Positions 6,595 to 59,600 of a DNA stretch of 64,000 nucleotides are shown piece after piece (the first letter of the stretch is position 1; each line of letters opens with the position of its first letter). The stretch comes from Rhizobium sp. CG5. GTDB lineage: Bacteria > Pseudomonadota > Alphaproteobacteria > Rhizobiales > Rhizobiaceae. Below the pieces are notes generated by a model. It saw only the letters and a program-made list of their open reading frames with translations, had not been told where the DNA came from and searched no databases. The DNA is taken from NCBI RefSeq assembly GCF_023701945.1, contig NZ_JABAEF010000017.1, positions 62,001-126,000 of the forward strand, in the 5' to 3' direction. A program made the position numbers and the translations under genes.

Positions 6595-6836
6595 TTGTTC
6601 GAACCTCTCAGTTCTCCCAACTCTATCGTAGGTGTATTAGTAAAAAATAAAAGTTGAATCCTCGAGAAACCATTTTTGGCAAAGATGATGCCCGCAAAGT
6701 CCTTGGGATTGAATTGACAAAGCGCATTGAGCCCCACAGCTCCTCGCTAGAGACACCGGCTGTCAAATCTTCGTTTGGTAGCGTTGGTGCGTCCGCGACT
6801 TTTGACTAGAAATGTCGCACACGTGGGCGGGCAATG

Positions 6837-42999: not shown

Positions 43000-43020
43000 G
43001 TCTGTGCTCCACCTTGAGAT

Positions 43021-44322
43021 TTAACGATTTTGGACCGGGGCGACTTTGGTCCCGTTTTCCGGCGCGGTGCGCGACAAGACGAGCGTCACGATCGCGGACA
43101 CGACCAGCAATGCGGCGACGAAGTAGAGGCCGCCCGCAAAGCTGCCGGTGACGTCCTTGATCCAGCCGATCATCGAGGGACCAACGAAGCCACCGAGGTT
43201 GCCGATCGAATTGATGGTGGCGATCCCCGCCGCGGCGGCCGGCCCGGAAAGGAACAGCGTTGGCATGCTCCACAGCGGTGGCTTCGAGCAGCTGATGCCG
43301 ATGTTGACCAGCGTCAGCGCAATGAGGACTGTGAAGACGCTCATGGCACCTGTTGCGAATGCAAGCCCGGCGGCAGCAAGCAGGCAGGCGCCGACGACAT
43401 GCCAGGTCCGTTCACCGGTCTTGTCGGAATGACGTGCCCAGAGGACCATGGCGACCACCGCGAAGATACCGGGCACGGCGTTGATGAAGCCGACCTGCAG
43501 AGATGACAGACCAAACTCTTTGATGATCTGTGGCGCCCAGATACCCAGAGTGTAAAGACCGGCGGATGTTCCGAAGTAAACAAGAGCTAGCGCAATGACA
43601 CGGATGTCGGCCAGACCTGCCAGGATGCTGTGGCTTGCCCCACCCTTGGTGGTCTGCTCGGCATTCATCGTTTTCACAAGCCAGTTCCGCTCATCTTCCG
43701 AGAGCCACTTTGCCTTTTCCGGGCGATCGGTCAGGTAGAAGAGGACAACGAAGCCGAGTATTATCGCTGGTGCTGCCTCGATCAGGAACATCCACTGCCA
43801 TCCGGCAAGACCGAGGAAGCCGTGCATTTCCATGAGTGCACCTGAGATCGGCGATCCGAGGACAGTAGAGAGCGGCGCTGCTGCCATGAACATCGCGGTC
43901 ACTGCCGCACGTCGGCGAGCCGGAAACCAGAAGCTCAGATAGAGAATAATGCCGGGAAAGAAGCCCGCTTCTGCGACGCCGAGGAGGAAGCGCAACGCAT
44001 AGAAAGTGGTCGTTCCCTGCACGAACGCCATCAGGCCGGACACGATCCCCCAGGTGATCATGACGCGGGCGATCCAGATGCGCGCTCCTACCTTGTTGAG
44101 AATGAGATTGGACGGGACCTCGAACAGGAAGTAGCCGACGAAGAAGATGCCTGCACCGATGCCGAAGACGGTCGACGAGAAGCCGAGGTCCTGGTTCATG
44201 GTCAATGCGGCAAAGCCGATGTTCACGCGGTCCAGGAACGCGATGAAATACAGCAGCATGATGAATGGTACGATGCGCAGAGTGATTTTGCGCAGGACGC
44301 GCGTCTCCAGGTCGCTGTTCAT
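43021..44322 (-). CDS. ttuB: MFS tartrate/carboxylate importer TtuB
   Basis: A 433-residue anion:cation symporter-type MFS protein with 12 membrane segments, the start IVPFIMLLYFIAFLDRVNIGFA, and FFVGYFLFEVPSNLIL, both hallmarks of the phthalate/tartrate/hexuronate branch. The ATG at 44322 lies 7 bases after a GGAGG site; the longer reading from 44355 is not needed. First gene of ttuBCDE, divergent across 122 bases from the LysR gene ttuA. Confidence 0.9.
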   Translation of the reverse strand: MNSDLETRVLRKITLRIVPFIMLLYFIAFLDRVNIGFAALTMNQDLGFSSTVFGIGAGIFFVGYFLFEVPSNLILNKVGARIWIARVMITWGIVSGLMAFVQGTTTFYALRFLLGVAEAGFFPGIILYLSFWFPARRRAAVTAMFMAAAPLSTVLGSPISGALMEMHGFLGLAGWQWMFLIEAAPAIILGFVVLFYLTDRPEKAKWLSEDERNWLVKTMNAEQTTKGGASHSILAGLADIRVIALALVYFGTSAGLYTLGIWAPQIIKEFGLSSLQVGFINAVPGIFAVVAMVLWARHSDKTGERTWHVVGACLLAAAGLAFATGAMSVFTVLIALTLVNIGISCSKPPLWSMPTLFLSGPAAAAGIATINSIGNLGGFVGPSMIGWIKDVTGSFAGGLYFVAALLVVSAIVTLVLSRTAPENGTKVAPVQNR

Positions 44323-44411
44323 AGCGAACTCCTCCCAATGATCCGTTCGACGCACCTCCTGCGTCGTCGGAAGAAGGCTATGTCGCCCTTTCCTTCCAGG
44401 CCATACTGCTC

Positions 44412-44425
44412 TAATTATATAATTA
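44412..44425. promoter_or_regulatory. Palindrome in the ttuB/ttuA intergenic region, candidate LysR site
   Basis: TAATTATATAATTA is a perfect 14-base palindrome, 20 bases before the ttuA ATG and 90 before the ttuB ATG. It fits the T-(N)-A dyad usual for LysR targets and may overlap the ttuA promoter. Confidence 0.5.
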
Positions 44426-44444
44426 AACGATACAATGAGGCGTC

Positions 44445-45359
44445 ATGGAACTGGAACAGTTGAGGTGCTTCGTCGCTGTTGCAGAAGAACTGCATTTCGG
44501 CCGAGCGGCGCAGAAGATGGGTCTGCTCCCGGCGTCCCTGGGACGGCATGTGAGACTGCTGGAGGAGTCCTTGGGCACTCGCCTCATGTCCCGGACAACG
44601 CGTAGCGTCTCTCTGACGGAAGACGGCGCCGCCCTGCTTGAGGAGGTGCGGCCCCTTCTCCATCGCCTGCAGACACTCGCCGAGGAGTTTCGATCTAGGA
44701 AAACCCAGCAGGCGACCGTGCTGCGCATCGGCGCGATCGACAGTGCTGCCGCAGGCCTCATACCGGCGTTGTTGCACGATTTCCGTGAGCGATGCCCGGG
44801 CATCGTCACTCAACTGGTTGAGGACAAATCCATCCGTCTCATTCCAAAATTGATTGCCGGGCGACTGGATGTCGTCTTCATTCGGCCCCGCGACGGACTA
44901 AGCCGCAATCTGGCTGTTCGCATCCTGACCCACGAAACACCCGTGATTGCCCTGCCCGTCACGCATCCTCTGGCCGCCTGCGACCGTGTCTCGGTAGATG
45001 AACTGGGAGACGAGCCCCTCATCGTGCCCGACCGTCGCTCTCGACCGCACAGCTACGATCTGACGATGAAACTCTTCGAAGACGCGGGACTGCACCCGCG
45101 CATAGCGCAGATTGCTGACGAAAAGCAAACGATCATAAACCTCGTTGCAGCAGGCATCGGGTCCGCCATCGTTCCGCGCTGGACTTCGAAACTCGCAGTA
45201 TCCGGGGTGACCTTCGTTTCTCTGGTGAACGCCGACAACACACCATTGCGAAAACTGCCGCTTGCTGTCGCCTGGATCAAAGCTGTCCGCGATCCCGGTC
45301 GGGATCAGTTGCTGGAACTGCTGGACAAAAACATCGGTCGATACGCAGAGCAGGCATAG
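44445..45359 (+). CDS. ttuA: LysR-family regulator TtuA
   Basis: A 304-residue LysR regulator: w[29 protein letters not shown], then a second helix pattern [26 protein letters not shown], and a co-inducer domain ([24 protein letters not shown]). Identity as TtuA rests on its divergent position to ttuBCDE, the same arrangement as in grapevine Agrobacterium. It probably activates ttuBCDE in response to tartrate. Confidence 0.85.
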
Positions 45360-45604: not shown

Positions 45605-46105
45605 TCAGAAGGCGCTTATAAGTTTGCTTAAGAGACTGTTCAGACAGTCTCTTTCAGACGTAGAGAGTGTCCGAACGACTTTCAAGAAGCGAGATGACCG
45701 CGCAACCTGTATCCGGCTTGCCTGCAAAAGTTTCTCACCACTGTCAGTCATCTGCACAAAAACGGTGCGTTTGTCCGAACTTGACGGGACACGCAGGACA
45801 AGTCCCTTTTGTTCCAACCTCGCAATTCGGCCAGTGATAGCTCCCGTGGTCACCATGCAAAGCTCGGCGAGATCGCTTGGCCGCAAACGATGCGGCGCCG
45901 GTTGATGGCGAAGATAGTTGAGCACGTCAATCTCGCCAATGCCGACATCGAACGCCATAAGTATCTCAGATAGCGAATCCTGATCCAGCATATGCAGGTG
46001 ACGGAGATGCATCGCGATCGCGACAGGCGTGCTGTCCTCACCCGGAAAATCCGTCTCCCATTGACTGATAAGATCCGAAAATATGCCCTTGGTTTCAGAC
46101 ATCAC
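45605..46105 (-). CDS. MarR-family regulator of the ring-cleavage cluster
   Basis: A 166-residue winged-helix regulator: dimerisation helices at both ends and a wHTH with LRPSDLAELCMVTTGAITGRIARLEQKGLVLRVPSSSDKRTVFVQMTDSG. The start is a GTG followed by an ATG, so it may begin at 46105 or 46102. Divergent from the flavin reductase gene across 182 bases, with TTGACC (46229-46234) and TAAGAT (46251-46256) a candidate promoter for the other side. Probably represses the cluster until an aromatic ligand binds; the ligand is unknown. The 245 bases between it and ttuA hold no gene. Confidence 0.88.
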   Translation of the reverse strand: MMSETKGIFSDLISQWETDFPGEDSTPVAIAMHLRHLHMLDQDSLSEILMAFDVGIGEIDVLNYLRHQPAPHRLRPSDLAELCMVTTGAITGRIARLEQKGLVLRVPSSSDKRTVFVQMTDSGEKLLQASRIQVARSSRFLKVVRTLSTSERDCLNSLLSKLISAF

Positions 46106-46228
46106 TGCTTCATATCTATCTTGGAGCTAACAAAAAAAGCGGAGAAAGACTCTCACGTCTTTCATAAATCTTTGATTCCATTCACGCAATCGCTTTCGCG
46201 CAAAAATAGCCCGAAATCGGAAACGGGA

Positions 46229-46256
46229 TTGACCAAAGTTAGTTTAGTAGTAAGAT
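46229..46256 (+). promoter_or_regulatory. Candidate sigma-70-like promoter of the ring-cleavage operon
   Basis: TTGACC and TAAGAT separated by 16 bases, about 32 bases before the flavin reductase ATG. The imperfect dyad TTAGT...TGCTAA across the -10 region could be a MarR site. Weak evidence. Confidence 0.4.
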
Positions 46257-46287
46257 AGTGCTAAGGTAGTTTGAGGGAACCTATACG

Positions 46288-46836
46288 ATGATACGAGCAT
46301 CGACAATGCAGCATTTTGTCGCAGAGGAAAACCGCTTGGAGAGATCTCCAGACATTGAAGATCTCAAAGGCGCTTTCAGCCGCCTTCCATCCGGTGTGGT
46401 CGTGATAACAAGCACGAGTGCATGCGGCGAATTTGCCGGAGCAACCGTCAGCAGCTTCACCTCGTTGTCGTTCAAGCCCCCTCTTGTCGTTTTCGGTCTG
46501 GCGCAGAGTTCGGCAACGCTTTCAGCCATCCTCAGCCATGGGCATTTCGCAGCGCATGTGGTTGCCGAACCACATCAGGATCTGGCAATGCGTTTCGCAT
46601 CCAGCGGCACCGACAAATTCAATGGCGTTGATTTTAAGTTGTCTCCCTTCGGGGTGCCGCTGTTAACGCAGTTCGATACGTATTTTCAGTGCACGTTGGA
46701 ACGTGCACAACCAACCGGCGATCATCAGCTTCTTGTCGGTCGCGTTCTTGACGTGTCCCTTGCGGGGCGGAACGCCACGCCGGTCGCCTGGCTTCAGCGA
46801 AGCTTTCACGTCTGCGAGCGTGTTACGGCGCTCTAG
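46288..46836 (+). CDS. Flavin reductase of a two-component monooxygenase
   Basis: A 182-residue flavin reductase of the HpaC/FMN_red type (flavin_reduct domain: AFSRLPSGVVVITSTS, GATVSSFTSLSFKPPLVVFGLAQSS, DLAMRFASSGTDKF, and the late HQLLVGRVLDVSL). It supplies reduced FMN or FAD to the monooxygenase encoded 47 bases downstream. Also used in 4-hydroxyphenylacetate, steroid and chlorophenol hydroxylation systems. First gene of the operon. Confidence 0.9.
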   Translation: MIRASTMQHFVAEENRLERSPDIEDLKGAFSRLPSGVVVITSTSACGEFAGATVSSFTSLSFKPPLVVFGLAQSSATLSAILSHGHFAAHVVAEPHQDLAMRFASSGTDKFNGVDFKLSPFGVPLLTQFDTYFQCTLERAQPTGDHQLLVGRVLDVSLAGRNATPVAWLQRSFHVCERVTAL

Positions 46837-46883
46837 CTGCATCGCACATCTGACCACACAACTTAAAAAAATGAGGAAATGCC

Positions 46884-48179
46884 ATGGAAATGAGCGTTAA
46901 GCAATTCGAGTATTCAGCGCCGGCGCGGCTCGACTCGCCCTACAGCACAGAGGCAGGCCGCAAGATTCGCGACAAAGCCAAAGCACTTGTGCCCTTGCTG
47001 CGTAAAAACGCCGGAGACGGAGAAAAGCTCGGTGCGCTCAATACAGAGAGCCTGAAAGCATTGAGCGACATCGGCGCATTCAAGCTGACCTTGCCGACCG
47101 ATTTCGGCGGATATGCGCTCGGAGCCCGCGATGTTGTCGAAATCGTTGCCGAGCTTGGTAGGGGCGATGGTGCAGCGGGCTGGATGGCATTTGTCGCGGG
47201 AGGCCTGCGCAACATCCTCGCCTTTCCGGATCGGGCGGTACAGGAGATCTTTGCCAATGGCGACGATTGGGTTGGCCCGCTGGCGGCCGGCGCCTCGGTC
47301 TTCGCCACGAAAGTAGGTTCCGCGCGCCGCGTGGATGGCGGCTGGATGGTCAGTGGCTCCTGGCATTTCGGCAGCGGCTGCAAGCATGCCAAATGGATCC
47401 TGGTCGGTGTCGAATACCAGAACAATTCGGGCATGGCTGGCCGAGCAATGACGATATTGAAGGCCGACCAGGTGGAAATCATCGACAATTGGCACGTCAT
47501 GGGGATGAAGGCGACCTCTTCCAATAGCTTGACAGTGCGCGAAGAACAGTTCGTTCCGGACCATCGCTTCATGGACATGGCGGAATTCCCGCCCAGAATG
47601 GACGAAACTCGTACGCGTTATCAGGGTTCCGCCAGCAAGTTCGACGGCCGCGGGCTGATGCTAGTGACCAATCTTACGCATTTGGCGATTGTCCTGGGCA
47701 TGGCGCGCGGTGTGCTGGAAACCTACATCGAAATGGCGAAAAAGCAGCAGCCTTTCAACCTGCCTTATCCTCGTGTCGCCGAGATGGCGTCGACCCAGAT
47801 TTGTGCGGCAAAGGCCTATGGCGCAATCAAGATAGTCGAAACAGCGGCCCTTAGCGCGGCTGATGTTCTCGACCGTCACGCACTTGAGGGACGCGATATC
47901 TCGGCCGAGCAAGAGCAGGCAATGATAATGGAGAGCGTCTACGCAGCCCACACACTTGACGGCGCCGTCGGTCAACTCCAGCTCAGCATCGGTTCGGCCA
48001 CCGCACATGAGAACAATGCCATCCAGCGATTTGTCCGCGATATCCGCGTGGCGATGCTGCATGGCGCGGTGAGGCTCGATCCTACAGCCGAAATCTTCGG
48101 ACGGCAGCTTATGGGCCTCCCCCCCTTCCCAATGTTTGCGGGAGGGTTGCCTGATCGAACGGCTCAGCCAGCGATCTGA
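46884..48179 (+). CDS. Flavin-dependent monooxygenase of the acyl-CoA-dehydrogenase fold (HsaA/HpaB-C2-like)
   Basis: A 431-residue protein of the acyl-CoA dehydrogenase superfamily, but with the aromatic-monooxygenase pattern: N-terminal RDKAKALVPLLRKNAGDGEKLG, GDGAAGWMAFVAGG, WHFGSGCKHAKWILVG and VMGMKATSSNSLTV. In these group D enzymes reduced flavin comes from a separate reductase, matching the gene upstream. It likely hydroxylates an aromatic substrate ortho to an existing hydroxyl, making a catechol for the extradiol dioxygenase at 52108. The substrate is unknown; the ring-hydroxylating role is inference from fold and neighbours. Confidence 0.85.
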   Translation: MEMSVKQFEYSAPARLDSPYSTEAGRKIRDKAKALVPLLRKNAGDGEKLGALNTESLKALSDIGAFKLTLPTDFGGYALGARDVVEIVAELGRGDGAAGWMAFVAGGLRNILAFPDRAVQEIFANGDDWVGPLAAGASVFATKVGSARRVDGGWMVSGSWHFGSGCKHAKWILVGVEYQNNSGMAGRAMTILKADQVEIIDNWHVMGMKATSSNSLTVREEQFVPDHRFMDMAEFPPRMDETRTRYQGSASKFDGRGLMLVTNLTHLAIVLGMARGVLETYIEMAKKQQPFNLPYPRVAEMASTQICAAKAYGAIKIVETAALSAADVLDRHALEGRDISAEQEQAMIMESVYAAHTLDGAVGQLQLSIGSATAHENNAIQRFVRDIRVAMLHGAVRLDPTAEIFGRQLMGLPPFPMFAGGLPDRTAQPAI

Positions 48180-48239
48180 CTGAGCCGGAAGCGTGCGGTT
48201 GGAGGCCGCGCGCCGTACTTACAAGAGGAGGAGGAAGCC

Positions 48240-49571
48240 TTGGAACAAGGAAAGAAGACGCGTGCCGTCGCCAATCCTGAGACCAACAGAGGATTCGAAT
48301 ACAGCGCCCATGCAGTGAAAGTGCTCGGTGCATTGTGGTTGATCGTACTGTTGGTCGTTGCGATACCGAGCATTGGCACAACTGTCATTAACGCTCGAAT
48401 GATCGACGACCTCAACATGGACCGAGCGGTGTTCGGTACGGGGTTTGGCATCTTCGTTATGATGATGGGCTTTCAGGGGCCCATCGTTGCTATGCTGGTC
48501 CGGAAATTCGGCTATCGTGCAACAGTCACCGCTGGATGTTTCGTGCTGTTTGCCGGTGCGCTTGCGATGGCAACCGTTGTTCAGACGGGATGGCAATATG
48601 CTCTCGCATTCGGATTGATGGTTGGGACAGGTGTCTGTGTTGCCGGGATGTTGCCCGCACAAACGGTCGTCACGAATTGGTTTCATGCGCGCCGTGCTCT
48701 GGCCGTATCAATCGTGTTCTCGGCTGTCGAGGTGGGCGGTTTTGTCCCCCCGCCTGCACTTGAAAAGCTCGTTGCCATGTCTGACGACAACTGGCGCGCA
48801 GCTTGGTGGGTGATTGCCGGGGCGGCGATCGTCGCCATGGTAACGGCCTATACCGCTTTGAATGAGCGCCATGTCGACCGGTTCATTGCGGAGAGCCCGA
48901 CCACGTTGCCGCTGCACGAGCGCGGCAAAGTGTTCAAGAGCACAACTCATTGGACACTCAGGGAAGCCGTTCGGACCAGGGCATACTGGCTGATCCTGAT
49001 CTACATGAGTATTGCTGGAGTAGCCTGGATCTTCCTCATGGCCCATGGCGCCGTGCACCTGCGGGACGTCGGATATTCGCCGGCTGAAGCCGCAAATGCC
49101 ATGGCGATCATTATCGTCGCGTCGTTTATCGGCAACATGACGGCCGGCCTCCTGGGAGACCACGTCTCACCTTCGATAATCGCGGCTGTGAGCATGGGTT
49201 TGATCGCTCTGGGCTTCTGCATGGTGGTCAAGCCGGAAGGGTTTACCGGAATCTTGCTGTACGCCCTTCCCGCAGGCATCGGATACGGAGCCTCGCAGGT
49301 CTGCCTGATGGCGCTTCTTGGCAACTACTTCGGCAAAGAATCCTTCTCGATCATCTTGGGTTCGATGATGCCGGTATCAACACTTTGTGCGGCAATCGGC
49401 GCCGGATCAGCAGGAGCCGTCTTTGATCGAACGGGAACATATGGAGGGGTGTTCCTGATCGTCACTGCGCTTTGCGTCATCGCATTGCTCGCCATCTTGG
49501 CTGCCTCGCCGCCGCACAGTCGCAGACCGAAGGAGGAGGAGCCATCGGTCAATCCAGTCGCAGCGGAGTGA
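48240..49571 (+). CDS. MFS transporter of the ring-cleavage cluster
   Basis: A 443-residue MFS protein with 12 membrane segments, of the monocarboxylate/oxalate-formate-antiporter-like type (GTGFGIFVMMMGFQGPIVAMLVRKFGYR, AGMLPAQTVVTNWFHARRALAVSIVFSAVEVGGF). It starts at a TTG behind a very strong AGAGGAGGAGGAA site. Likely imports the aromatic or acidic substrate across the inner membrane, after passage through the adjacent porin. Confidence 0.87.
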   Translation: MEQGKKTRAVANPETNRGFEYSAHAVKVLGALWLIVLLVVAIPSIGTTVINARMIDDLNMDRAVFGTGFGIFVMMMGFQGPIVAMLVRKFGYRATVTAGCFVLFAGALAMATVVQTGWQYALAFGLMVGTGVCVAGMLPAQTVVTNWFHARRALAVSIVFSAVEVGGFVPPPALEKLVAMSDDNWRAAWWVIAGAAIVAMVTAYTALNERHVDRFIAESPTTLPLHERGKVFKSTTHWTLREAVRTRAYWLILIYMSIAGVAWIFLMAHGAVHLRDVGYSPAEAANAMAIIIVASFIGNMTAGLLGDHVSPSIIAAVSMGLIALGFCMVVKPEGFTGILLYALPAGIGYGASQVCLMALLGNYFGKESFSIILGSMMPVSTLCAAIGAGSAGAVFDRTGTYGGVFLIVTALCVIALLAILAASPPHSRRPKEEEPSVNPVAAE

Positions 49572-49601
49572 ACAAATTCTATTCTTAGGGGGAGGACAAC
49601 A

Positions 49602-50978
49602 ATGCGAATTCTATACATCACCGTGCCGTTGATGCTGGGAACTGCCATTCCGGCGTCTGCTGCAGGCCCTGCCATCCTGTTGGAGGAAGAACCGCCTATC
49701 ATAGTCGGCCCTCCTGTGCCGACCTACTCTGGTCCGTTGGCAGACATTGGCAGATCGCTCCATGACAACGGAATTGATCTCCGCCTAGACTACCTCAACA
49801 TCTATCAGAACGCACCCACCTTTGGTTTCGCGGGTGGCTCGTCGGCCAACTATGGCATGTTCATCTTCGACGCTACCGGCTACCTGTCTCCTGATCTTCG
49901 CGTGAAGTTCACGGAGACGATCAACGCTCCATCCTACAATGTCGACGGCTATCTCTTTGACACGTCAAACGCCTTCTTTCCGGTACCGGTTGTCGACTCC
50001 GACACGGATCTCACACGCTTGACATTGGAGGCCGACTTTTTCGATGACCGCCTCCAAGTCGAGGCCGGCCGCATGGGACTGGCTCGCGACTTCATGACAA
50101 AGGGCTTTTGCGGTGGCCTTGGCTGCCTCAACTCGACGCAGGCGAACACTCTCAATGTGCCAGGCGAGTCGCTTGCCGTTTGGGGTGGTCGCGTCGCCTA
50201 CAAGCTAAAACCAGACACCACATTGGGCTTCGGCATCATCGAGGACAATCCCGACAATTGGCAAAACGGCAGTGGTTGGGATTGGCAAGCCGGGAGCAGC
50301 GAAGGCTATATCGCCATTGCCAATATCCGTCATGATGAGACATTCCGGGACAGCCTCAATCCGTTGCAATTTGAAGTCGGAGCCTATCATCGTTCCGCGC
50401 CCTATGAAGATGCTCTCTACAACGACGGTTGGGGGAATCCGACCTTCGGCGCGAGCCCAACGATCGTTACCCACGAGAATGGAACGACCGGTGTTTACGC
50501 TCAGGCGCGTAAGGTGATCTGGAGCAACCCTTCCGGCGGCATGATCCCGGAAAATCTGGCGATCTACGGCGGCATTTTTCACACCTTTGGCGAGGGCCAG
50601 GCTTATCCATGGGAGGCATACGCGGGTCTTGAATATTCGGGGTTCTGGGCAGAAAACCCGCTCGCGACGATCGGTGCTTCGGTTCATTACATCGGCCTCA
50701 GCGACGAACGAGCCCAATACGAGCGCAATGCCCGGCTGTTCTTCTCGGGACTTGATGAGGCGCAGCCGAAAGACACCTTCATGTTCGATGTGCACGCAAC
50801 CACTGGGGTGTTCGACATCGGCATTCTCGACGTGGGCGCCGCCTATCTCGTCAATCCCAACACGTCCGTTATGGCCGATTATTCAACCGGAAGGATGAAG
50901 GATGACTTCGTCTTTTACGCCGCACTGGCGTTCGACTTGAGCGGTGGCCTGGGCCTTTCGCCCCGCAGAGGTCCCTAA
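49602..50978 (+). CDS. OprB-like outer-membrane porin
   Basis: A 458-residue protein with signal peptide MRILYITVPLMLGTAIPASA, a Pro-rich linker, and an alternating beta-strand pattern with many aromatic residues and a C-terminal aromatic-free LGLSPRRGP end after FVFYAALAFDLSGG. Motifs such as GIDLRLDYLNIY, LQVEAGRMGLARDFM and AVWGGRVAYKLKPDTT are typical of carbohydrate-selective porins OprB. It probably lets the pathway substrate through the outer membrane. A strong GGGGGAGG ribosome site precedes it. Confidence 0.83.
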   Translation: MRILYITVPLMLGTAIPASAAGPAILLEEEPPIIVGPPVPTYSGPLADIGRSLHDNGIDLRLDYLNIYQNAPTFGFAGGSSANYGMFIFDATGYLSPDLRVKFTETINAPSYNVDGYLFDTSNAFFPVPVVDSDTDLTRLTLEADFFDDRLQVEAGRMGLARDFMTKGFCGGLGCLNSTQANTLNVPGESLAVWGGRVAYKLKPDTTLGFGIIEDNPDNWQNGSGWDWQAGSSEGYIAIANIRHDETFRDSLNPLQFEVGAYHRSAPYEDALYNDGWGNPTFGASPTIVTHENGTTGVYAQARKVIWSNPSGGMIPENLAIYGGIFHTFGEGQAYPWEAYAGLEYSGFWAENPLATIGASVHYIGLSDERAQYERNARLFFSGLDEAQPKDTFMFDVHATTGVFDIGILDVGAAYLVNPNTSVMADYSTGRMKDDFVFYAALAFDLSGGLGLSPRRGP

Positions 50979-51014
50979 GCAATTTTGTCCCACAGCAAGC
51001 AGGAGAACTCAGTA

Positions 51015-51428
51015 ATGCATGCCACTGAAAGCCGTGTTCGGCTTGAACGAAACAAGCACCTGGTCCGGGAATTCTACCGTCGTGTTTTCGACGGCCAGAA
51101 CGCGGAAGCCGTCAAGGACTTCGTCACCGAAGATTACAAGCAGCACAACAGCCATATTCCAAGCGGCCGGCAAGGCTTGGAGGGGTTCGTTCGGTCGGTG
51201 TTCCCGAACGGGCCGGTTCCCGAGCCGAGCGAGATGCGCATTCCCCCGTCCTTGATCGTGGCCGAGGGCGACATGGTCGTGGTGGCAGCGTCCCTGCCCC
51301 AGCCCGATCCCGATAATCCCGGGACCACATACGATTACTTTATCTTCGATGCCTACCGCATCCGGGATGATCGGTTGTCCGAACATTGGAGCGGTGTGAA
51401 CAAGATTGCTCCGCCGAAACACGCTTGA
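51015..51428 (+). CDS. SnoaL/NTF2-like small protein
   Basis: A 137-residue protein of the SnoaL/NTF2-like fold: NKHLVREFYRRVFDGQNAEAVKDFVTEDYKQHNSHI and the C-terminal FIFDAYRIRDDRLSEHWSGV. Such proteins act as cyclases, isomerases or hydrolases of small cyclic substrates in a cavity. The ATG at 51015 follows AGGAGA. In this operon it may isomerise or hydrolyse a lactone or enone formed after ring opening; this is speculative. Confidence 0.8.
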   Translation: MHATESRVRLERNKHLVREFYRRVFDGQNAEAVKDFVTEDYKQHNSHIPSGRQGLEGFVRSVFPNGPVPEPSEMRIPPSLIVAEGDMVVVAASLPQPDPDNPGTTYDYFIFDAYRIRDDRLSEHWSGVNKIAPPKHA

Positions 51429-51505
51429 CGACGTCGCTTAGGTCTCGCCTGATCCAGGCAAGGCACGAGCGAACGTCCACCCACCATCACTTGGAGATCC
51501 ATTAC

Positions 51506-52096
51506 ATGAAACTTTATCACGCGCCCGGCGCCTGCTCTAACGCATCCCGCATTGTCCTTGAGGAAGCCGGCATTGCCGTCGAGCCGGTGGAAGTCAACTT
51601 GAGGGACAAGACGCTTCCTGACGGGACAAGTTTTCTAAACATCACTCCCAAGGGCCAGGTCCCGGCACTTGTTCTCGACGATGGCCAGGTGCTGACCGAA
51701 GGGGCGGTCATCATGCAATATATCGCCGACCAGGCGCCTGCATCCGGATTGCTGCCAGCACCTGGCAACATGGCGCGCTACCGCGTGCTGGAATGGACCA
51801 ATTACATCGCCACCGAACTGCACAAGACCTTCTCACCGCTGAACCGGCCGAACACGCCGCCGGAGTTTCGGGAGATCACGAGGACCGCGCTGCTGCCGCG
51901 GGTTTTCGGGGTGCTGAATGACCGTCTGGCCGTCAGCGAATATCTTGCCGGCGACACTTTCTCGATCGCGGACGCCTACGCGTTTGTCGTTCTCGGCTGG
52001 ACGAAGCGGCAGGACATTGACCTGTCCGCCTGGCCAAATATCCAAACCTATCTCACACGGGTTGAAGACCGCCCTTCGGTCAAAGCGGCACTGTAG
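51506..52096 (+). CDS. Glutathione S-transferase (beta-class-like)
   Basis: A 196-residue GST: N-terminal thioredoxin-like domain MKLYHAPGACSNASRIVLEEAG with the beta-class Cys near residue 10, TPKGQVPALVLDDGQVLTEGAVIMQYI (glutathione binding), and a helical C-terminal domain. The ATG at 51506 is preferred since the upstream in-frame start overlaps the SnoaL gene. In ring-cleavage operons GSTs can isomerise maleyl-type products or detoxify reactive quinones; which applies here is unknown. Confidence 0.88.
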   Translation: MKLYHAPGACSNASRIVLEEAGIAVEPVEVNLRDKTLPDGTSFLNITPKGQVPALVLDDGQVLTEGAVIMQYIADQAPASGLLPAPGNMARYRVLEWTNYIATELHKTFSPLNRPNTPPEFREITRTALLPRVFGVLNDRLAVSEYLAGDTFSIADAYAFVVLGWTKRQDIDLSAWPNIQTYLTRVEDRPSVKAAL

Positions 52097-52107
52097 AGAG
52101 GATAATC

Positions 52108-53007
52108 ATGACTTATCTCATTCGACAAATGGGCCACGTAATTATCTCGTCGCCCGATCCCCTGGGCGCGGCAAAGGATCTTTGCGAGGTTGTGGGATTA
52201 CGGATCACCGAAGTTGACGGCGACACCGTATATCTCACCAGCAATGACCGCCATCACGAAGTGACTTACATCAAAGGCGACGGTAAGGCCATCGCTTGTG
52301 GACTTGAGGCCGTGAGTGCGTCCGCGGTCGATGAGGTCTATCGCCGCGCAAAATCGGACGGGCTGGAGATCCTGTCGGACAGGCCCCTCGGCAAGCATTA
52401 CGAGCGCGCCGTGCGTCTGGTCGCTCCTGGCGGCACCATTTTCGAAGTCCATACACCGATCGCCCGAAACCAGCCGCGACATTACAGCTATTCGGCTCCC
52501 GGTGCCCGTCCCCGACGGATCGAGCACATCAATTCCTTCGCGCCGGACACCGCCGCCTTTGGCGAGTTCTGCCAAAAGGGCTTGGGCATGAAGCTGTCGG
52601 ACATGACGGAGGACGGCGCGCTGCGATGGTACCGGGCAGAAGACGGTTATCACCACACAATCGCGATGGGACCGGGCGAAAGCGGGCTGCATCACTACGC
52701 CTTCGATCTGCATTCGCTTCAGGATCTGCAGACGATTGCCGACAATCTCGCCGAGAAGGACCGGGCTTTGGTTTGGGGACCGGGCCGCCACGGTGCGGGC
52801 GGGAACATCTTTACCTACTACGCCGACCCCCATGGCTGCCTGGTGGAAAACTCGATCGAACTCGATCGTATCGACAACGATGCCACCTATGAACCACGTA
52901 GCTGGGACATTTCGGAAGGGTTGGCGGGTCGTTGGCTGAACCTTTGGGGTACGCCGCCGACCGCCTCCTTCCTGCGTCCCGGCATCCCTTTCGATGTCAC
53001 GGCCTAG
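52108..53007 (+). CDS. Extradiol ring-cleavage dioxygenase of the VOC (type I) family
   Basis: A 299-residue two-domain VOC protein. The C-terminal domain has the Fe(II) triad: His140 in RRIEHINSF, His195/196 in GLHHYAFDL and Glu247 in GCLVENSIEL, plus the active-site YADPHG. The N-terminal domain has lost the equivalent ligands, as in catechol 2,3-dioxygenases. Expected to cleave a catechol made by the monooxygenase into a muconic-semialdehyde-type product. It follows the GST by 11 bases. Confidence 0.87.
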   Translation: MTYLIRQMGHVIISSPDPLGAAKDLCEVVGLRITEVDGDTVYLTSNDRHHEVTYIKGDGKAIACGLEAVSASAVDEVYRRAKSDGLEILSDRPLGKHYERAVRLVAPGGTIFEVHTPIARNQPRHYSYSAPGARPRRIEHINSFAPDTAAFGEFCQKGLGMKLSDMTEDGALRWYRAEDGYHHTIAMGPGESGLHHYAFDLHSLQDLQTIADNLAEKDRALVWGPGRHGAGGNIFTYYADPHGCLVENSIELDRIDNDATYEPRSWDISEGLAGRWLNLWGTPPTASFLRPGIPFDVTA

Positions 53008-53057
53008 GCCGAAGGGTACCTGACACAAAGCGTTCCCAAACAGGAAATATCTGAAAG

Positions 53058-53948
53058 ATGAGTATCAAGCTGAACCGCGATTTTCGCTACCGGATGCCGG
53101 TTTCGTTCGGACCGGCACCCGGGCCGCGCCAAAAGCCCGGCGGTGGCATGTGGAAGCCGGAGGAGACCGGCCGGATGAATGCCGAATGGATGGCGATCAC
53201 CTATCGCACCGATCCGAAAAAACTCGAAGCACTGCTTGCGCCGGGCATGGAGCTGCGCGGCGATCCGCTGGTCACCGTGTCCTGTGCCTGGTTCAAGAAC
53301 CTCTACTGGCTGGCTGGGCGCGGCTACGGCATCGTGGTCGTCGATTTCCCGGTGACCTATCGCGGCAGGACGGAGACGCTGGAAGGCACATACTGCCCGG
53401 TGCTGTGGGAAGGTGCGCCCGACGCCATCATGACCGGCCGCGACGAGCTGGGCTTTCCAAAAATGTTCGCCGACATCCCGGAAATCGAACACGACAAGGA
53501 GCGAGGCACCGCCGCCTGCTCGGCCTCCTGGATGGGGTTCAAATTCTTCGACATCGCACTCACGGATCTGGTCGACGCCGGCAATGAGCCGGCCCTTCCC
53601 GGGGCGGATAACGGTCCAGCGATGTATTATAAATACGTGCCCCGCACAAGCATCGGCGGGTGCGAGGGCCCCGACGTGGCCTATGTCACCACCGCCGCGG
53701 CGCCGGCTGGAGCAGGCGGCAGGGTCGGCAACATCAATTTCGACGGCTTCGACTTCAAGCGCTGGTCCGCCAAAGGCACAGTGGCATGGCACCGGGCCAC
53801 GTTCGAGCAATTGCCGCTCAGCGCGCATGTCGTTAACGGCATGGCCGATCTCGATATTCTTGAAATCACCAAGGTGCAGATGGTCGCCTTCTCAGGTCCC
53901 GGGATCGCGGTCTCGGTCAACTCCATGCGCGCAGTGGATCCAGCTTAA
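53058..53948 (+). CDS. Acetoacetate-decarboxylase-like protein
   Basis: A 296-residue ADC-family protein. The lysine that forms the Schiff base in ADC lies in ELGFPKMF (Lys135); the second lysine that follows it in the classical enzyme is Met here. Other family segments: APGMELRGDPLVTVS, VVVDFPVTYRG and YYKYVPRTSIGG. Members outside acetone fermenters catalyse retro-aldol, hydratase or decarboxylase steps on 2- and 3-oxo acids. It may act on the beta- or oxo-acid produced after ring cleavage; the reaction is inferred, not known. Confidence 0.83.
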   Translation: MSIKLNRDFRYRMPVSFGPAPGPRQKPGGGMWKPEETGRMNAEWMAITYRTDPKKLEALLAPGMELRGDPLVTVSCAWFKNLYWLAGRGYGIVVVDFPVTYRGRTETLEGTYCPVLWEGAPDAIMTGRDELGFPKMFADIPEIEHDKERGTAACSASWMGFKFFDIALTDLVDAGNEPALPGADNGPAMYYKYVPRTSIGGCEGPDVAYVTTAAAPAGAGGRVGNINFDGFDFKRWSAKGTVAWHRATFEQLPLSAHVVNGMADLDILEITKVQMVAFSGPGIAVSVNSMRAVDPA

Positions 53949-53965
53949 ACTAGGAAGTATACATC

Positions 53966-54817
53966 ATGAAGTTGGCAAGGTTCACGATTGACGGCACCAT
54001 CCGTCTGGGAAAGCTCGAGAACGAACAGGTCATCGATTTGACCGGCACCGCCCGGAACTGCGGTGATTCGATGCGGCTGCTCCTCGAAAGATATGAGGAG
54101 TTGCGTCCGGCATTGGAATCGGTTCAGGGGCCGTCCTTCCCGCTCACGGCCGTGCGACTGGAGGCTCCGATCGCCGATCCGCAGAAATTCCTGGCGATCG
54201 GCATGAACTACAAGGCCCATGCCGAAGAAGCGGCTGCCGCCGGCATCAAGATCCCTGAGAGCCAGTTGTGGTTCAACAAACAGGTCAGTTGCATCAATGG
54301 CCCTTACAGCGCCATCGTCGTGCCCAAAGCATCGACGATGGTCGACTACGAGGCCGAACTGGGCTTTGTCATCGGCAAGCGTTGCCGCCATGTAAGCAGC
54401 GATGCTGCCCGAACGGTGATCGCCGGTTATCTGGTGGCCAACGACGTAACCGCCCGGGACTGGCAGTTCCGCTCGCCGACCTATACGCTGGGCAAATCAT
54501 TCGATACCCACGGCCCGCTTGGCCCGTGGATCACCACGGATGATGAAGTGGAGGACCCGCATGATCTGACGCTCACCCTTTCGCTGAACGGACAAGAGCG
54601 GCAGCGAACATCGACCGGCGACATGATCTACAATATCTACGAGCAGATCGCATACCTATCGACGGTCATGACATTAGAACCAGGAGACGTCATCATCACC
54701 GGCACGCCATCCAACGTGGGGATTGCAACGAAAACATTCATGAAGCCGGGCGACGTGGTGCGCGTCGAGGTCAACGGTCTGGGCGCGATCAAAAATCACT
54801 TTATCACGGAAGTCTGA
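53966..54817 (+). CDS. Fumarylacetoacetate hydrolase-family enzyme
   Basis: A 283-residue FAH-superfamily protein (2-hydroxyhepta-2,4-diene-1,7-dioate isomerase / acylpyruvase-like): IGMNYKAHAEEA, the metal Glu pair in MVDYEAELGFVIGK, AGYLVANDVTARDWQF (Asp), GPLGPWITT and the C-terminal GTPSNVGIAT. It hydrolyses or decarboxylates a vinylogous or acylpyruvate-type ring-cleavage product to central metabolites. Last gene of the operon; it converges with the siderophore esterase. No terminator hairpin was seen in the 129-base gap that follows. Confidence 0.88.
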   Translation: MKLARFTIDGTIRLGKLENEQVIDLTGTARNCGDSMRLLLERYEELRPALESVQGPSFPLTAVRLEAPIADPQKFLAIGMNYKAHAEEAAAAGIKIPESQLWFNKQVSCINGPYSAIVVPKASTMVDYEAELGFVIGKRCRHVSSDAARTVIAGYLVANDVTARDWQFRSPTYTLGKSFDTHGPLGPWITTDDEVEDPHDLTLTLSLNGQERQRTSTGDMIYNIYEQIAYLSTVMTLEPGDVIITGTPSNVGIATKTFMKPGDVVRVEVNGLGAIKNHFITEV

Positions 54818-54946: not shown

Positions 54947-55831
54947 CTATCGCGGAAGCGCAAATCTCAAGGCCCCGCAAAGCGCTGCCGTTAGCGTGCT
55001 GGCATGATCTTCATTCATCTGGATCTCGAACCTGACGGCTGCCTTTGCACCCAGAACCTCCGCGATGTGGCGCGAAACCTCCTCGGCATTCTCGATCATC
55101 CGGCGTTTGCGGCGCAGCGCGCCGTAATCGTGCCCCGCCTGCAGCAGTCCTTGCCAGGGCGCCAGTTCCCGCTCCCATTCGCCGACCGTCGTGTACAGCC
55201 TCAAGGGGCGCTCGAGATCCCTGCCGGCGGTCTCCAGGGATTGTAGCATCGCCGGGCGATCCCACCATATCGACGGACTGACGGCGACGTAGCCGGAAAA
55301 AAGGCCGGGACACTGGCACAAAAGGTCGAGCACGAAATAGCCGGCCAGCGAGTGGCCGAGGACGACCTGCGCCGTCCTGTCGATATCGTAAAGGCCGGCG
55401 ACATGCGGCATCAGACTGTCGCCGAGAAAACGGATGAAATCCGCCTGTCCGCCGCAGGCAGGCAGATGCCTGTCCTTCAAGGCGTCGTCAGCCGGCGGCC
55501 CGCGTGTGAAATCGAAATGGCGGCGGTCTGCATGGTAGTCGCCGATGCCGGGATAGCCGATGCCGATGACGATCGACGGCCGCACCCCGGTTGCAGAAGG
55601 TCGCCGCGACAGCCGCCGGACCGTCTCGGCTACCAACAGGAAATCGGCGTTCGCATCCAGCACGTAGAATACCGGAAAACCTTCCGGCGGTGGCGGCGTG
55701 GCCGGCACATATTCGAAAATGTCGTAGCACTGCGCTGGGTCCTTGCCTTCCAGGCGATAGCGCCGGCATCCGGCAACATCGATCGACTCCGATACGATGT
55801 TCTCCTGTCTGTCAGCGGCATTGTTCAGCAT
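54947..55831 (-). CDS. Siderophore esterase (IroE/BesA-like alpha/beta hydrolase)
   Basis: A 294-residue hydrolase of the COG2819 group: FYVLDANADFLLVAETVRRLS, VIGIGYPGIGDYH, the nucleophile elbow VVLGHSLAGYFVLDLL (Ser) and the C-terminal MNEDHASTL (His). Members cleave the serine trilactone of enterobactin-type siderophores to release iron. Last gene of the siderophore operon, 14 bases after entA. The absence of a signal peptide suggests cytoplasmic action. Confidence 0.85.
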   Translation of the reverse strand: MLNNAADRQENIVSESIDVAGCRRYRLEGKDPAQCYDIFEYVPATPPPPEGFPVFYVLDANADFLLVAETVRRLSRRPSATGVRPSIVIGIGYPGIGDYHADRRHFDFTRGPPADDALKDRHLPACGGQADFIRFLGDSLMPHVAGLYDIDRTAQVVLGHSLAGYFVLDLLCQCPGLFSGYVAVSPSIWWDRPAMLQSLETAGRDLERPLRLYTTVGEWERELAPWQGLLQAGHDYGALRRKRRMIENAEEVSRHIAEVLGAKAAVRFEIQMNEDHASTLTAALCGALRFALPR

Positions 55832-55845
55832 GATTATCTTCCTTC

Positions 55846-56613
55846 CTATCCACGCAAGGTCGCGCCGCCGTCGACATAGAGATCTGCCATGGTGATATGG
55901 CAGGCCTGGTCGGACAATAGAAACACCACCGCCTGGGCGATGTCGTCCGGCATTGCCAGTTTGCGCAGGGGAATACCGGTGCGGTAGGTTTTCAGCGATC
56001 CCTCGATCACCGCCTCTGCGCCGCTATCGTCCGCCCACATGCCGGTTTGCATCGGCGTCAATGTCGAGCCGGGGGCGACGATGTTGCAGCGGATGCCATG
56101 GGGGCCGAGCTCCAGGCCAAGGCAGCGGGTGAACATCGTGGCAGCAGCCTTGGAAGCGGCATAGGCCGCCATATTCTGCCGCGGTATGCCGGCCGCATTC
56201 GATCCGACCGTGACGATGGCGCCGCTACCCTGCGCAATCATGGACCTGGCCAACGCCCGAGAGACGAGGAAAACACCCGTGGCATTGATGGCGATGACGC
56301 GATTCCAAACCGCCTCGGACGTCTCGACCACAGATGTTGTCTGCAGTACACCGGCGACATTGACGCCGAAATCGACATGGCCCCAATCCCTGGCAATACC
56401 ATCGACGAAACGGTCGACCGCGGCCCCGTCACAGACATCGAGGCGATGGACCAGCAGGCGCTCGGCATCAAGAGCCGCCAGCGCAGCCGTCTCGACATCG
56501 GTGGCAGCGACGGTGACGCCCATGGCCAGCAGCAGCTTGACAACGGCAAGACCGATGCCGCCGCCGGCGCCGGTCACCAGCGCCGTTTTCCCCTCGAAAC
56601 CGGTCAGTTGCAT
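55846..56613 (-). CDS. entA: 2,3-dihydro-2,3-dihydroxybenzoate dehydrogenase
   Basis: A 255-residue short-chain dehydrogenase: ALVTGAGGGIGLAVVKLLL (NAD), NVAGV, the Ser in VTVGSNAA and YAASKAAA (Tyr, Lys). It oxidises 2,3-dihydro-2,3-DHB, the isochorismatase product, to 2,3-DHB. The ATG at 56613 overlaps the end of entF by 10 bases; an upstream start at 56766 lies inside entF and is rejected. Gene context makes EntA rather than another SDR very likely. Confidence 0.9.
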   Translation of the reverse strand: MQLTGFEGKTALVTGAGGGIGLAVVKLLLAMGVTVAATDVETAALAALDAERLLVHRLDVCDGAAVDRFVDGIARDWGHVDFGVNVAGVLQTTSVVETSEAVWNRVIAINATGVFLVSRALARSMIAQGSGAIVTVGSNAAGIPRQNMAAYAASKAAATMFTRCLGLELGPHGIRCNIVAPGSTLTPMQTGMWADDSGAEAVIEGSLKTYRTGIPLRKLAMPDDIAQAVVFLLSDQACHITMADLYVDGGATLRG

Positions 56614-59600
56614 GCAAGTGTGCTTTCGGCTGTGTCCAGGGCTTGCCGCAGCAGCGGAGTGATCGCCGCCACCGCCGCGGCGCTGGTCATTTGGGCATGA
56701 ACGAAGGGCACCTCGCAGACATGGAGATGGCCGACATAGGGCAGCCAGGCGTCCGGATTCAGGCATCTCTGCCCGGCGGTAGCCTGCGCGCGGACATGCA
56801 GCACCGGGCCATCGTAGAACCGGTGGCGGTGCTGGCGCATGAAGCGGTTGTTGAGGCCGACAACCCGCAAAATGCCGTCGAGGGCGCTGCCGGGCAATTG
56901 TCCGAGTGCGCTGCCCCGCTCGCGCAGGAAGCGGCAGACGGCATCACGGGTCAGCGGGAGGTCCGGCAGCTGCTCCGGATCGTGTCCGGCAATGGCGAGC
57001 AGCGCCTTCAACTCGGCGCCCTGCCCCGGATCGGCTTCGTTGCGCCAGCAATCGGCCGGATAGGCATCGAGCATTGCCAGCAGGCCGACGCGGCATCCCA
57101 TGTCGTGAAGCTGCACGGCCACGGCCTGCGCCAGAATGCCGCCGACCGACCAGCCGCAGAGATGAACCGGGTCGGTGCCGCTCAAAAGCGCGATCCGGCG
57201 GGCATAGTCGAGTGCCATCTCGTCGAGGCTTTCCGGCACGGGCATGCTCTCGTCGAGCGCCAAGGCCTGCACCCCCCAGCCGTCGCGCTCTGCGGAAAAC
57301 TGGCGGGCATAGCCGCTATAGCACCAGGACAGCCCTCCGGCCGGATGCAGCATGAACAAGGCGGGCTTGCCGGCCTCCCCGGCATTGAGCTTCAGCAGAG
57401 GCTGCAGTCCGGCGTCGGTCCCAACCGTGACATGCTCCAGATGATGCGCCAGCCGCCGCACCGTAGAATTTTCAAACAGAATGCCGATCCCGGGATCGCG
57501 CCCGAGGATCTCGCGCAGATGCAGCATAAGTTCGACCGCCAGCAGCGAATGGCCGCCAAGGTCGAAAAAATCGTCATCGGCGGAGAGATCCTGTTCGATT
57601 CCGAGAATCCGGGCAAACAACAGCGCCACAAGTCTTTCGGTTTCGCCCTGCGGGCGGGTGCTGGCGCGCGGCGTGCGTGCCGGTCTCGGCAGCGCCTTAC
57701 GGTCCAGCTTGCCGCTCGCCGTCAGAGGCAGCGCCTCCAGCCGCGTGATTGAGGCGGGTATCATGTAATCCGGCAAGCGCGCCGTGACATGGGCAGACAG
57801 CGCGCCGGTCACCTCACCCTCGCCGGCGATCACGACATAGGCAGCGATACATCCGCCCCCGGCCGTGTCCTCGCGCAGAATGGCGACGGCCTGCGCGACC
57901 GCCGGATGCGACAACAACGCCGCCTCGATCTCGCCGAGTTCGATACGCTGCCCCCTGAGCTTGACCTGATAATCGGAGCGGCCGATATAAACGATGGCGC
58001 CATCGTCGCGCAGGCGGGCCAGGTCGCCGGTCTGATACATTTTCTCCGCGGGGTGAAAGGGATCGGCGATGAAGCGCTCGGCCGTCAACGCCGGCTGGCC
58101 GAGATATTCGCGCGCCAATTGTACGCCGGCGATATAGAGATGGCCTGCCACCCCTGCCGGCACCGGCCGCAGATAATCGTCGAGAACATAGAGACGCGTG
58201 TTCCAGACCGGATAGCCGATCGGCACGGGACTGGAACGGTCTTGCGGACCGGCCGGCCAGTAGCTGACATCGACCGCCGCCTCCGTCGGCCCGTAGAGAT
58301 TGTGCAATTGCGCCCAGATATGGCGGTGAAAGCGGTCCCGCAGATCGCTGGTCAGTTCCTCGCCGCTGCAGAACACTCTTTTCAGCGCAAGCCCGCGTGT
58401 TTTCGGCTCCGACACGAAGGCCGAAAGCATGGAGGGCACGAAATGCGCCGTCGTCACGCCATTCTGCCTGACCAGTTGCGCCAGCGCCAGGGCATCCCTG
58501 TGAGCCTCGGGAGGAGCGACGACCAGCAATCCCCCGGAAACGAAGGACAGAAAGAATTCCCAGACGGAAACGTCGAACGTCATCGGCGTTTTCTGCAGGA
58601 TCACGTCATCGGCATCAAAACCGTAATGCGCCTGCATCCATGCCAGCCGGTTGACGATGGCGCCATGTTCGATGACCACGCCCTTGGGCTCCCCGGTGGA
58701 GCCGGAGGTGTAGAGCACGTAGGCGGCATCCGATGGCGCCTGCACGGGACGGGCGGTGCCGGCGGGCGCCAATGGCCAATCCCGCGGAAGACTCACCTCG
58801 ACCCCGGCCAGCGTCTCCTCGGCAAGCAGCAGCAGTGGCCTTGCCGACGCCAGTATGCGGTTCAAGCGCTCCGCAGGGTGGCTGAGGTCGAGCGGCATAT
58901 AGGCGGCGCCGGCCCTGAGGATCGCCACCAGCGCCACGATCAGCTCGATCGATCGCGGCAGGGCAACGGCAACGATGCTCCCCCGGCCGATGCCGCGGGC
59001 AAGCAGCATCTCCGCCAGGGCCGCCGTCCGCTGATCGAGCTGCGCATAGCTCAGCGACGTGTTTTCAAAGCGCACCGCCTCGCGTTCGGCAAATTCCCCG
59101 AAAGCCTTTTCGATGATGGCGGTGAGGGTCGGATCCTTCACCGCATGGCTGGTCGCATTGAGGCCATGGATCAGCCATTCGGCCTCCGGCGGCGTCACGG
59201 TCTCGAGGTCGCGCAGACGTGCACCGGATCTTGCTGCGCGCACCGCAGACAGCAGGAAGGCCGCCAGCCGTTCGGCATGGCGCGGTCCCGCATCCGGCGG
59301 GTAGAGATCAGGATTGGTGTCGACCTCGATGCAGAAGGATCCGCGAGCCGGATCGCCGCGGAAGCTGAAGGTGATATCATCGACCGGCCCGGTTCCCAGC
59401 AGCGTCAGGGTGGTATCGGCACCCGCCAGCAAGGGCACCGCGTCAAACGGCAGAACGTTGACCAGAGGGCCATAGAGGCGCCTGTTGCCGCCAAGAAGGC
59501 CGAGATCGCGGCGGATCTGTTCATGACGGTAGCGCCCGTGGCGGCGGTCGGCGGCCATCCGCGCGGCACTTTCCCGCAACCAGGAGACAAGGTCGCGTTC

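Follow-up and report, generated by a model that had tools for sequence, protein, structure and literature searches.

An unusual set of enzymes in a conserved and partly mobile operon for probable aromatic ring cleavage in Rhizobium sp. CG5 and its relatives

Gene content and enzyme families

The DNA considered here is a stretch of 64,000 nucleotides, hereafter called the window, from the 6.5 Mb genome of Rhizobium sp. CG5 (genome G000), and its subject is an operon on contig C8, at window positions 45605-54817, that is conserved, partly mobile and marked by an unusual set of enzymes predicted to act in meta-cleavage of an aromatic ring. The operon comprises ten genes, a MarR-family regulator gene and nine co-directional genes on the plus strand, with 182 nt between the divergent marR and flavin reductase genes and gaps of 47, 60, 30, 36, 77, 11, 50, and 17 nt between the nine. 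An earlier description made from the letters without database searches (the sequence-only reading) had proposed one operon of these ten genes, and its coordinates, strands and each of its family assignments agree with ours. The Pfam families represented are, in order, MarR, flavin reductase, acyl-CoA dehydrogenase (ACAD) domains, MFS, OprB, SnoaL, glutathione transferase (GST), glyoxalase/extradiol dioxygenase, acetoacetate decarboxylase (ADC) and FAH. TTG at 48240 is the sole start codon within the first 60 bases inspected of the MFS frame, and better starts were chosen for the SnoaL-like protein (ATG 51015) and the GST (ATG 51506).

The regulator (45605-46105, minus strand) scores above the Pfam cutoffs for MarR and MarR_2, and its best NCBIfam match, HpaR, remains below cutoff (43.7 against 121.2). 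The flavin reductase (46288-46836, plus strand, as are all genes that follow; Pfam Flavin_Reduct 125.6 bits) lies 47 nt upstream of the gene for a flavin-dependent monooxygenase of ACAD fold (46884-48179), whose similarity to 3-HSA hydroxylase (PDB 3afe and 2rfq), XiaF, and C2 p-hydroxyphenylacetate hydroxylase (C2-HPAH) extends along most of the protein. The match to 3afe (E 1.7e-33 over residues 34-415 of 431), together with the adjoining reductase gene, places the protein in the ACAD-fold flavin monooxygenase group. Neither component reaches the NCBIfam equivalog cutoffs of the 3-HSA hydroxylase (HsaA 163.7 against 450 bits; HsaB 100.3 against 230), nor does the oxygenase reach that of C2-HPAH (134 against 650 bits) or the reductase that of FerA (103.7 against 260). 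The next two genes encode an MFS transporter (48240-49571; Pfam MFS_1 108 bits) and an OprB-type outer-membrane porin (49602-50978; Pfam OprB 103.2 bits), a pairing that had been taken to indicate a scarce substrate, for which we find no support.

The type I extradiol dioxygenase of the VOC family (52108-53007) is recognized by Pfam and by alignment with 1f1r. Residues H140, H196, E247, H182, H228, and Y237 align with this structure and are invariant in all six rows of alignment A1; following the roles assigned in homoprotocatechuate dioxygenase (HPCD), we take the first three to be iron ligands and the last three to be catalytic. All six iron-binding and catalytic residues checked are thus kept, as in a type I extradiol dioxygenase. 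Membership of the catechol 2,3-dioxygenase and BphC families is not reached at NCBIfam cutoffs.

Next to the dioxygenase gene lies that of an ADC-like enzyme (53058-53948), which belongs to the acetoacetate decarboxylase-like family (Pfam ADC 94.3 against a gathering score of 29.8 bits; structural relatives 3cmb, 3bgt, and 3c8w) and carries a conserved lysine, K135, which lies in a GFPK motif and is invariant in alignment A2. We assume that the Lys-Lys pair of the ADC motif marks acetoacetate decarboxylase and that K135 is its motif lysine. The second lysine is replaced by Met or Leu in 8/8 rows of A2, and the match to acetoacetate decarboxylase proper is poor (PRK02265, 33.5 against 150), so that this protein, with K135 kept and the neighboring lysine replaced, probably does not act as a simple acetoacetate decarboxylase. 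The last gene encodes an FAH-family hydrolase/decarboxylase (53966-54817; Pfam FAA_hydrolase 241.4 bits) related to the structures of HpcE and diketo acid hydrolases. It keeps the His/Glu and acidic metal positions of HpcE (1gtt), to which we presume the same metal-binding and catalytic roles apply, and falls short of the cutoff for 2,4-didehydro-3-deoxy-L-rhamnonate hydrolase (2,4-diketo-3-deoxyrhamnonate hydrolase; DhyDRhmHlse, 222 against 500 bits), though this is its best NCBIfam match.

Two further proteins complete the set. The SnoaL-like NTF2-fold protein (51015-51428) exceeds the Pfam cutoffs for SnoaL_2 and SnoaL, and its structure model, of middling confidence (pLDDT 70.7), matches NTF2-fold SnoaL-like cyclases and limonene epoxide hydrolase. 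The GST (51506-52096) is a GstA equivalog (NF007831, 223.6 against a cutoff of 198), the sole protein of the ten to exceed a named NCBIfam cutoff; the other nine reach none. Besides the FAH and ADC-like proteins, no hydrolase, semialdehyde dehydrogenase, hydratase or classical aldolase family is represented in the window operon, which makes these two the prime candidates for dismantling a ring-opened acid.

Conservation, variant forms and promoter

The same ten genes occur in the same order (form A) in six genomes besides that of the window, namely R. herbae DSM 26427, Agrobacterium vitis CG78, NCPPB 3554 (present again as genome G012 and counted once), CG118 and T60/94 (G032), and a congener (G015). 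Five of the six belong to the genus of the window, four of these being A. vitis. In R. herbae the encoded proteins are 81% (MarR), 79% (reductase), 84% (ACAD), 81% (MFS), 81% (OprB), 88% (SnoaL), 85% (GST), 95% (VOC), 92% (ADC), and 85% (FAH) identical to those of the window. Purifying selection acts on all nine structural genes: comparison with R. herbae and A. vitis CG78 gave ratios of nonsynonymous to synonymous substitution (dN/dS) of 0.027-0.171 in 17 of 18 cases, the remaining one being saturated, and the dioxygenase gene is the most constrained of them (0.039 and 0.027). The sequence-only reading had called for a search for this gene order elsewhere and had allowed that the genes might be chance neighbors; the ten-gene order, the dN/dS values and an operator-like palindrome at the promoter speak against chance. 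Beside the R. herbae operon, on the opposite strand, lies a possible further ring-cleavage set (L044, 1-3300) of a flavin hydroxylase (37%), an FAH protein (36%) and a VOC protein (28%).

A second arrangement (form B) consists of the operon plus a flavin hydroxylase of the MhpA subfamily (518 against a cutoff of 390) inserted between the VOC and ADC genes. It is found on plasmid pAt of A. vitis, on contig 7 of NCPPB 3554, in Rhizobium sp. CF080, and on plasmid pR132503 of R. leguminosarum bv. trifolii WSM1325, and both pAt and pR132503 are typed as conjugative. On pAt a second MFS gene follows the hydroxylase; open frames stand there in NCPPB 3554 and CF080, and none in WSM1325. The first MFS gene of form B is in two pieces in both A. 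vitis copies (L043, 27081-28402; L051, about 5900-7200). The surroundings on pAt (L123 and L043; NZ_CP118261, 56-122 kb) hold four annotated VOC genes, four ACAD-type genes, four FAH genes and two MhpA-like hydroxylase genes in ∼65 kb, an apparent aromatic-catabolism island.

A third arrangement (form C), present in A. vitis at all three loci searched (L048-L050), has another gene order and includes a TetR gene; its VOC (86%), FAH (75%), ADC (67%), and OprB (61-64%) proteins are closer to those of the window than are its ACAD (49-50%), reductase (32%), SnoaL (27-29%), and MFS (19-23%) proteins, and neither MarR nor GST is matched in it at E 1e-6. A GH1 beta-glucosidase gene stands by form C in all three loci and was considered as a hint of a glucoside substrate; it adjoins a family 5 solute-binding protein gene, is absent from the five other loci searched (L044, L052, L040, L043, and the window), and is treated as part of a separate sugar system. 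In two metagenome bins, one of Xanthobacteraceae and one of Rhodobacteraceae, a VOC protein of 74-78% identity is paired with the flavin hydroxylase (59-60%), and the 16-21 kb of sequence examined there contain no match to the ACAD protein.

The set is rare. Among 60 relatives, VOC matches of at least 85% occur in four, the window's own genome included, all of the same genus. ADC matches at E≤1e-50 were found in 1 of 297 genomes of the family, the window's own (in a draw without A. vitis carriers). At E≤1e-30 the class yielded matches in 5 of 385 genomes (its own and four others, at 37-41%), and the phylum in 2 of 398 (its own and one at 40%). A scan of named genomes by VOC alignment gave relatives encoded at 129 places, of which 78 loci were kept: four of form A, two of form B, three of form C, and 69 without the set, many with an FAH match nearby. 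In Chloroflexi, an FAH match stands beside a VOC protein (32-38%) in six of seven loci (L087, L088, L089, L092, L095, and L096; not L116), with a MarR match on the opposite strand in five of the six, possibly an old relative of the module.

The marR-reductase interval contains a promoter-like stretch on the plus strand (46229-46257) with a -35-like TTGACC (46229-46234) and a -10-like TAAGAT (46251-46256). The palindrome TATCTTAGNNCTAAGATA matches the window twice at three mismatches, once between and over these boxes (46240-46257) and once adjoining the marR start (46117-46134), and has zero matches in 100 shuffles of the window. The promoters of MarR-led clusters, when aligned, share an invariant TTGAC, then TTAG-N3-TAAGATA, then CTAA (8/8), and TAAGAT stands 16 nt after the TTGACN box; this pattern is consistent with a -35 and a -10 box and with an operator that occupies the space between them and overlaps the promoter. 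The palindrome is exact in the A. vitis copies and carries one to three mismatches in CF080, R. herbae, WSM1325, and the window. Its exact copies number two in NCPPB 3554 (G012), two in T60/94 and one in the congener, all five between marR and the reductase gene. The operon is probably MarR-regulated, with the palindrome as the predicted binding site of the regulator.

Proposed pathway and competing explanations

The gene content and its conservation argue that the operon is probably repressed by its MarR protein and probably encodes a self-contained meta-cleavage route for a phenolic compound of plant origin. Judged by their families, the porin and the MFS transporter would bring the substrate in, and the flavin reductase would supply reduced flavin to the ACAD-fold monooxygenase, which by homology is predicted to hydroxylate the phenol next to its hydroxyl group to give a catechol. 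The extradiol dioxygenase, whose active-site residues are present, would then open the ring of this proposed substrate. The FAH protein may cleave or decarboxylate the resulting dioxo acid, and the ADC-like enzyme may form a lysine Schiff base with a beta-keto intermediate, leading to decarboxylation or breakage of a C-C bond, either before the FAH step or on the keto acid released. The SnoaL-like protein (as a tautomerase- or hydratase-like enzyme) and the GST (as an isomerase or in protection) could assist, and of all the assignments these two are the least secure. Both the substrate and the sequence of the final steps are predictions from family chemistry. We tentatively suggest that the ring bears a second, meta-placed hydroxyl, as in resorcinol, in which case cleavage would give an acylpyruvate-like acid and the FAH enzyme would release pyruvate and an acid. 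The fuller proposal, that a Schiff-base enzyme of the ADC family and an acylpyruvase of the FAH family do the work of the usual hydrolase or dehydrogenase, hydratase, and aldolase in breaking down a resorcinol-type plant compound, and that the unit is spread by conjugative plasmids among plant bacteria, is doubtful when taken as a whole.

The kind of pathway is already known, and what appears new in the operon is the combination of its enzymes. In Pseudomonas mandelii 7HK4, the hcdABC genes serve a 7-hydroxycoumarin/3-(2,4-dihydroxyphenyl)propionate pathway for a resorcinol-type acid; the enzymes, encoded in one operon, are a flavin hydroxylase, an extradiol dioxygenase of type I, and a member of the FAH family, and the end products are 2-hydroxy-4-oxopent-2-enoate and succinate in a scheme that has one step marked hypothetical (PMC6222606). 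The window operon likewise joins flavin hydroxylation, type I extradiol cleavage, and an FAH-family enzyme, and the logic of hcdABC would suit the order of ADC and FAH action given above. The two differ in that HcdA is a class A flavin monooxygenase (FMO), of which there is none among the window operon genes, and in that the available hcdABC description includes no ACAD-fold monooxygenase, ADC, SnoaL, GST, porin or MarR protein (PMC6222606; compared by description, not by sequence). Form B does carry such a gene, and its extra hydroxylase is of the MhpA-like subfamily that the same source names as functionally related to HcdA (PMC6222606). A parallel in chemistry exists with fde (naringenin) and ifc (isoflavone), in which plant phenols are catabolized by flavin hydroxylation and VOC-type ring cleavage; the ifc route begins with a group A FMO and uses cupins at later steps (PMC11069340). 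The ten genes, with an ACAD-type enzyme and with neither a group A FMO nor a cupin, were set apart from fde/ifc by gene content, not by FdeC or IfcB sequence. In Saccharolobus solfataricus, growth on phenol induces a catechol 2,3-dioxygenase together with two ADC-related proteins, which were proposed as aldolases, and the regulon also contains an FAH-family protein, a grouping that the window operon resembles; the first enzyme of that regulon is a toluene-4-monooxygenase-type system, and no ACAD monooxygenase appears in the accessible part of the description (PMC7820114).

With HsaABC (3-HSA, steroid) and C2-HPAH/HpaD (hydroxyphenylacetate) the operon shares an ACAD-fold two-component monooxygenase and type I extradiol chemistry. 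Identity with any of these was rejected, all components lying far under the NCBIfam cutoffs, and to our knowledge neither pathway includes an ADC, SnoaL or GST protein. The placement outside the HpaBC and Hsa pathways by the sequence-only reading is thus borne out, HpaD, C2-HPAH, HsaABC, catechol 2,3-dioxygenase, and BphC all being below cutoff. It recognized each family but not the combination; for the full set no published pathway was found in the open-access literature (most subscription papers lie outside this search), whereas parts of the combination are shared with hcdABC (PMC6222606) and Saccharolobus (PMC7820114).

Several observations weigh against a resorcinol-type pathway under MarR control. 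An ortholog of the form B hydroxylase is absent from the window genome (best relative 37%), so that the resorcinol proposal needs a substrate already bearing the extra hydroxyl. The best PDB match of the FAH protein is HpcE, an isomerase/decarboxylase, which fits an ordinary catechol route equally well; the structure model of the ADC-like protein has a pLDDT of 32.5 and was left unused; and 4-hydroxy-2-oxovalerate aldolase exceeds its cutoff in 0/7 genomes, but also in 0/14 control genomes. Sites within three mismatches of the palindrome number 6 in the window genome against 4 for a reversed control, and 3 against 5, 4 against 8, and 4 against 9 in G012, G015, and G032, respectively; weak matches alone therefore mean little. 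Extra sites on contig 2 of the window genome (two to three mismatches) were rejected as operators of related genes, as no operon-gene relatives occur in 17 kb there, and the four sites outside the window are taken as chance, without proof (6 against 4).

An ordinary catechol meta pathway, in which the FAH protein would be an HpaG-like decarboxylase/isomerase or hydratase, the ADC-like enzyme the final aldolase, and general cell enzymes would oxidize the semialdehyde, is rather unlikely. It draws on the resemblance to HpcE just mentioned, on HpaD (homoprotocatechuate 2,3-dioxygenase) as the best NCBIfam match of the dioxygenase, and on an aldehyde dehydrogenase gene that follows the operon on A. 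vitis pAt, whose closest families include HpaE, below cutoff; the aldolase role proposed for the Saccharolobus ADC-family proteins agrees with it (PMC7820114). Yet the HpaD match scores 94.5 bits under an equivalog cutoff of 321.4, and the window operon has no dehydrogenase, tautomerase, separate hydratase or classical aldolase gene. Less probable still is a role in detoxifying or altering a phenolic signal or an antibiotic without support of growth, with FAH, ADC, SnoaL, and GST proteins clearing reactive products. MarR control, the GST, the transporter, the naming of the hosts as plant bacteria and the occurrence on two conjugative plasmids would all suit such a role, and isoflavone catabolism by the ifc system also relieves toxicity (PMC11069340); the OprB porin and two enzymes suited to ring-opened acids nevertheless suggest complete catabolism, and detoxification and growth are not mutually exclusive.

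That two modules became adjacent by chance, one for uptake and hydroxylation and the other an ADC-FAH module for a different keto acid, is very improbable. In B. cenocepacia CMCC(B)23006, relatives of the ADC and FAH proteins (57% each) sit near another VOC protein (26%), a flavin hydroxylase (39%), and a DUF4440 protein; form C has its own gene order; and an ADC relative on an A. tumefaciens plasmid (37%) lies among ABC transporter genes without VOC or FAH. This last is cited for the present question alone, ADC relatives at 34-41% in other neighborhoods having been left out of functional inference. Against separate modules, FAH, VOC, and flavin hydroxylase genes are all close by at every locus examined with an ADC protein at least 57% alike (forms A, B, C, and B. 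cenocepacia), and the ten-gene order is fixed in form A. A single meta-cleavage pathway for a plant phenolic remains the preferred reading. A. vitis, a grapevine bacterium, and rhizobia would then share a conserved catabolic unit that is in part carried on plasmids and has a probable operator. With nine of the ten proteins under every NCBIfam cutoff, the operon is likely to act on one or more ring-fission substrates not yet described, and an ADC-family enzyme may have a new role in it. The forms with and without the extra hydroxylase offer a ready comparison for finding the substrate.

Flanking genes

Directly upstream of the operon (40640-45359) stands a tartrate-type group that encodes a tartrate dehydrogenase (TIGR02089, 625.9 against 470.4), a MOFRL/DUF4147 protein, which we take to be of glycerate-kinase type, an MFS transporter and a LysR regulator, a group notable for a bacterium related to A. 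vitis of grapevine. Immediately after the operon, on the opposite strand (54947-60524), are genes for a nonribosomal peptide synthetase (NRPS) with condensation, adenylation, carrier, and thioesterase domains, a 2,3-dihydro-2,3-dihydroxybenzoate dehydrogenase (315.1 against 300), and an esterase, which are probable catechol siderophore genes.

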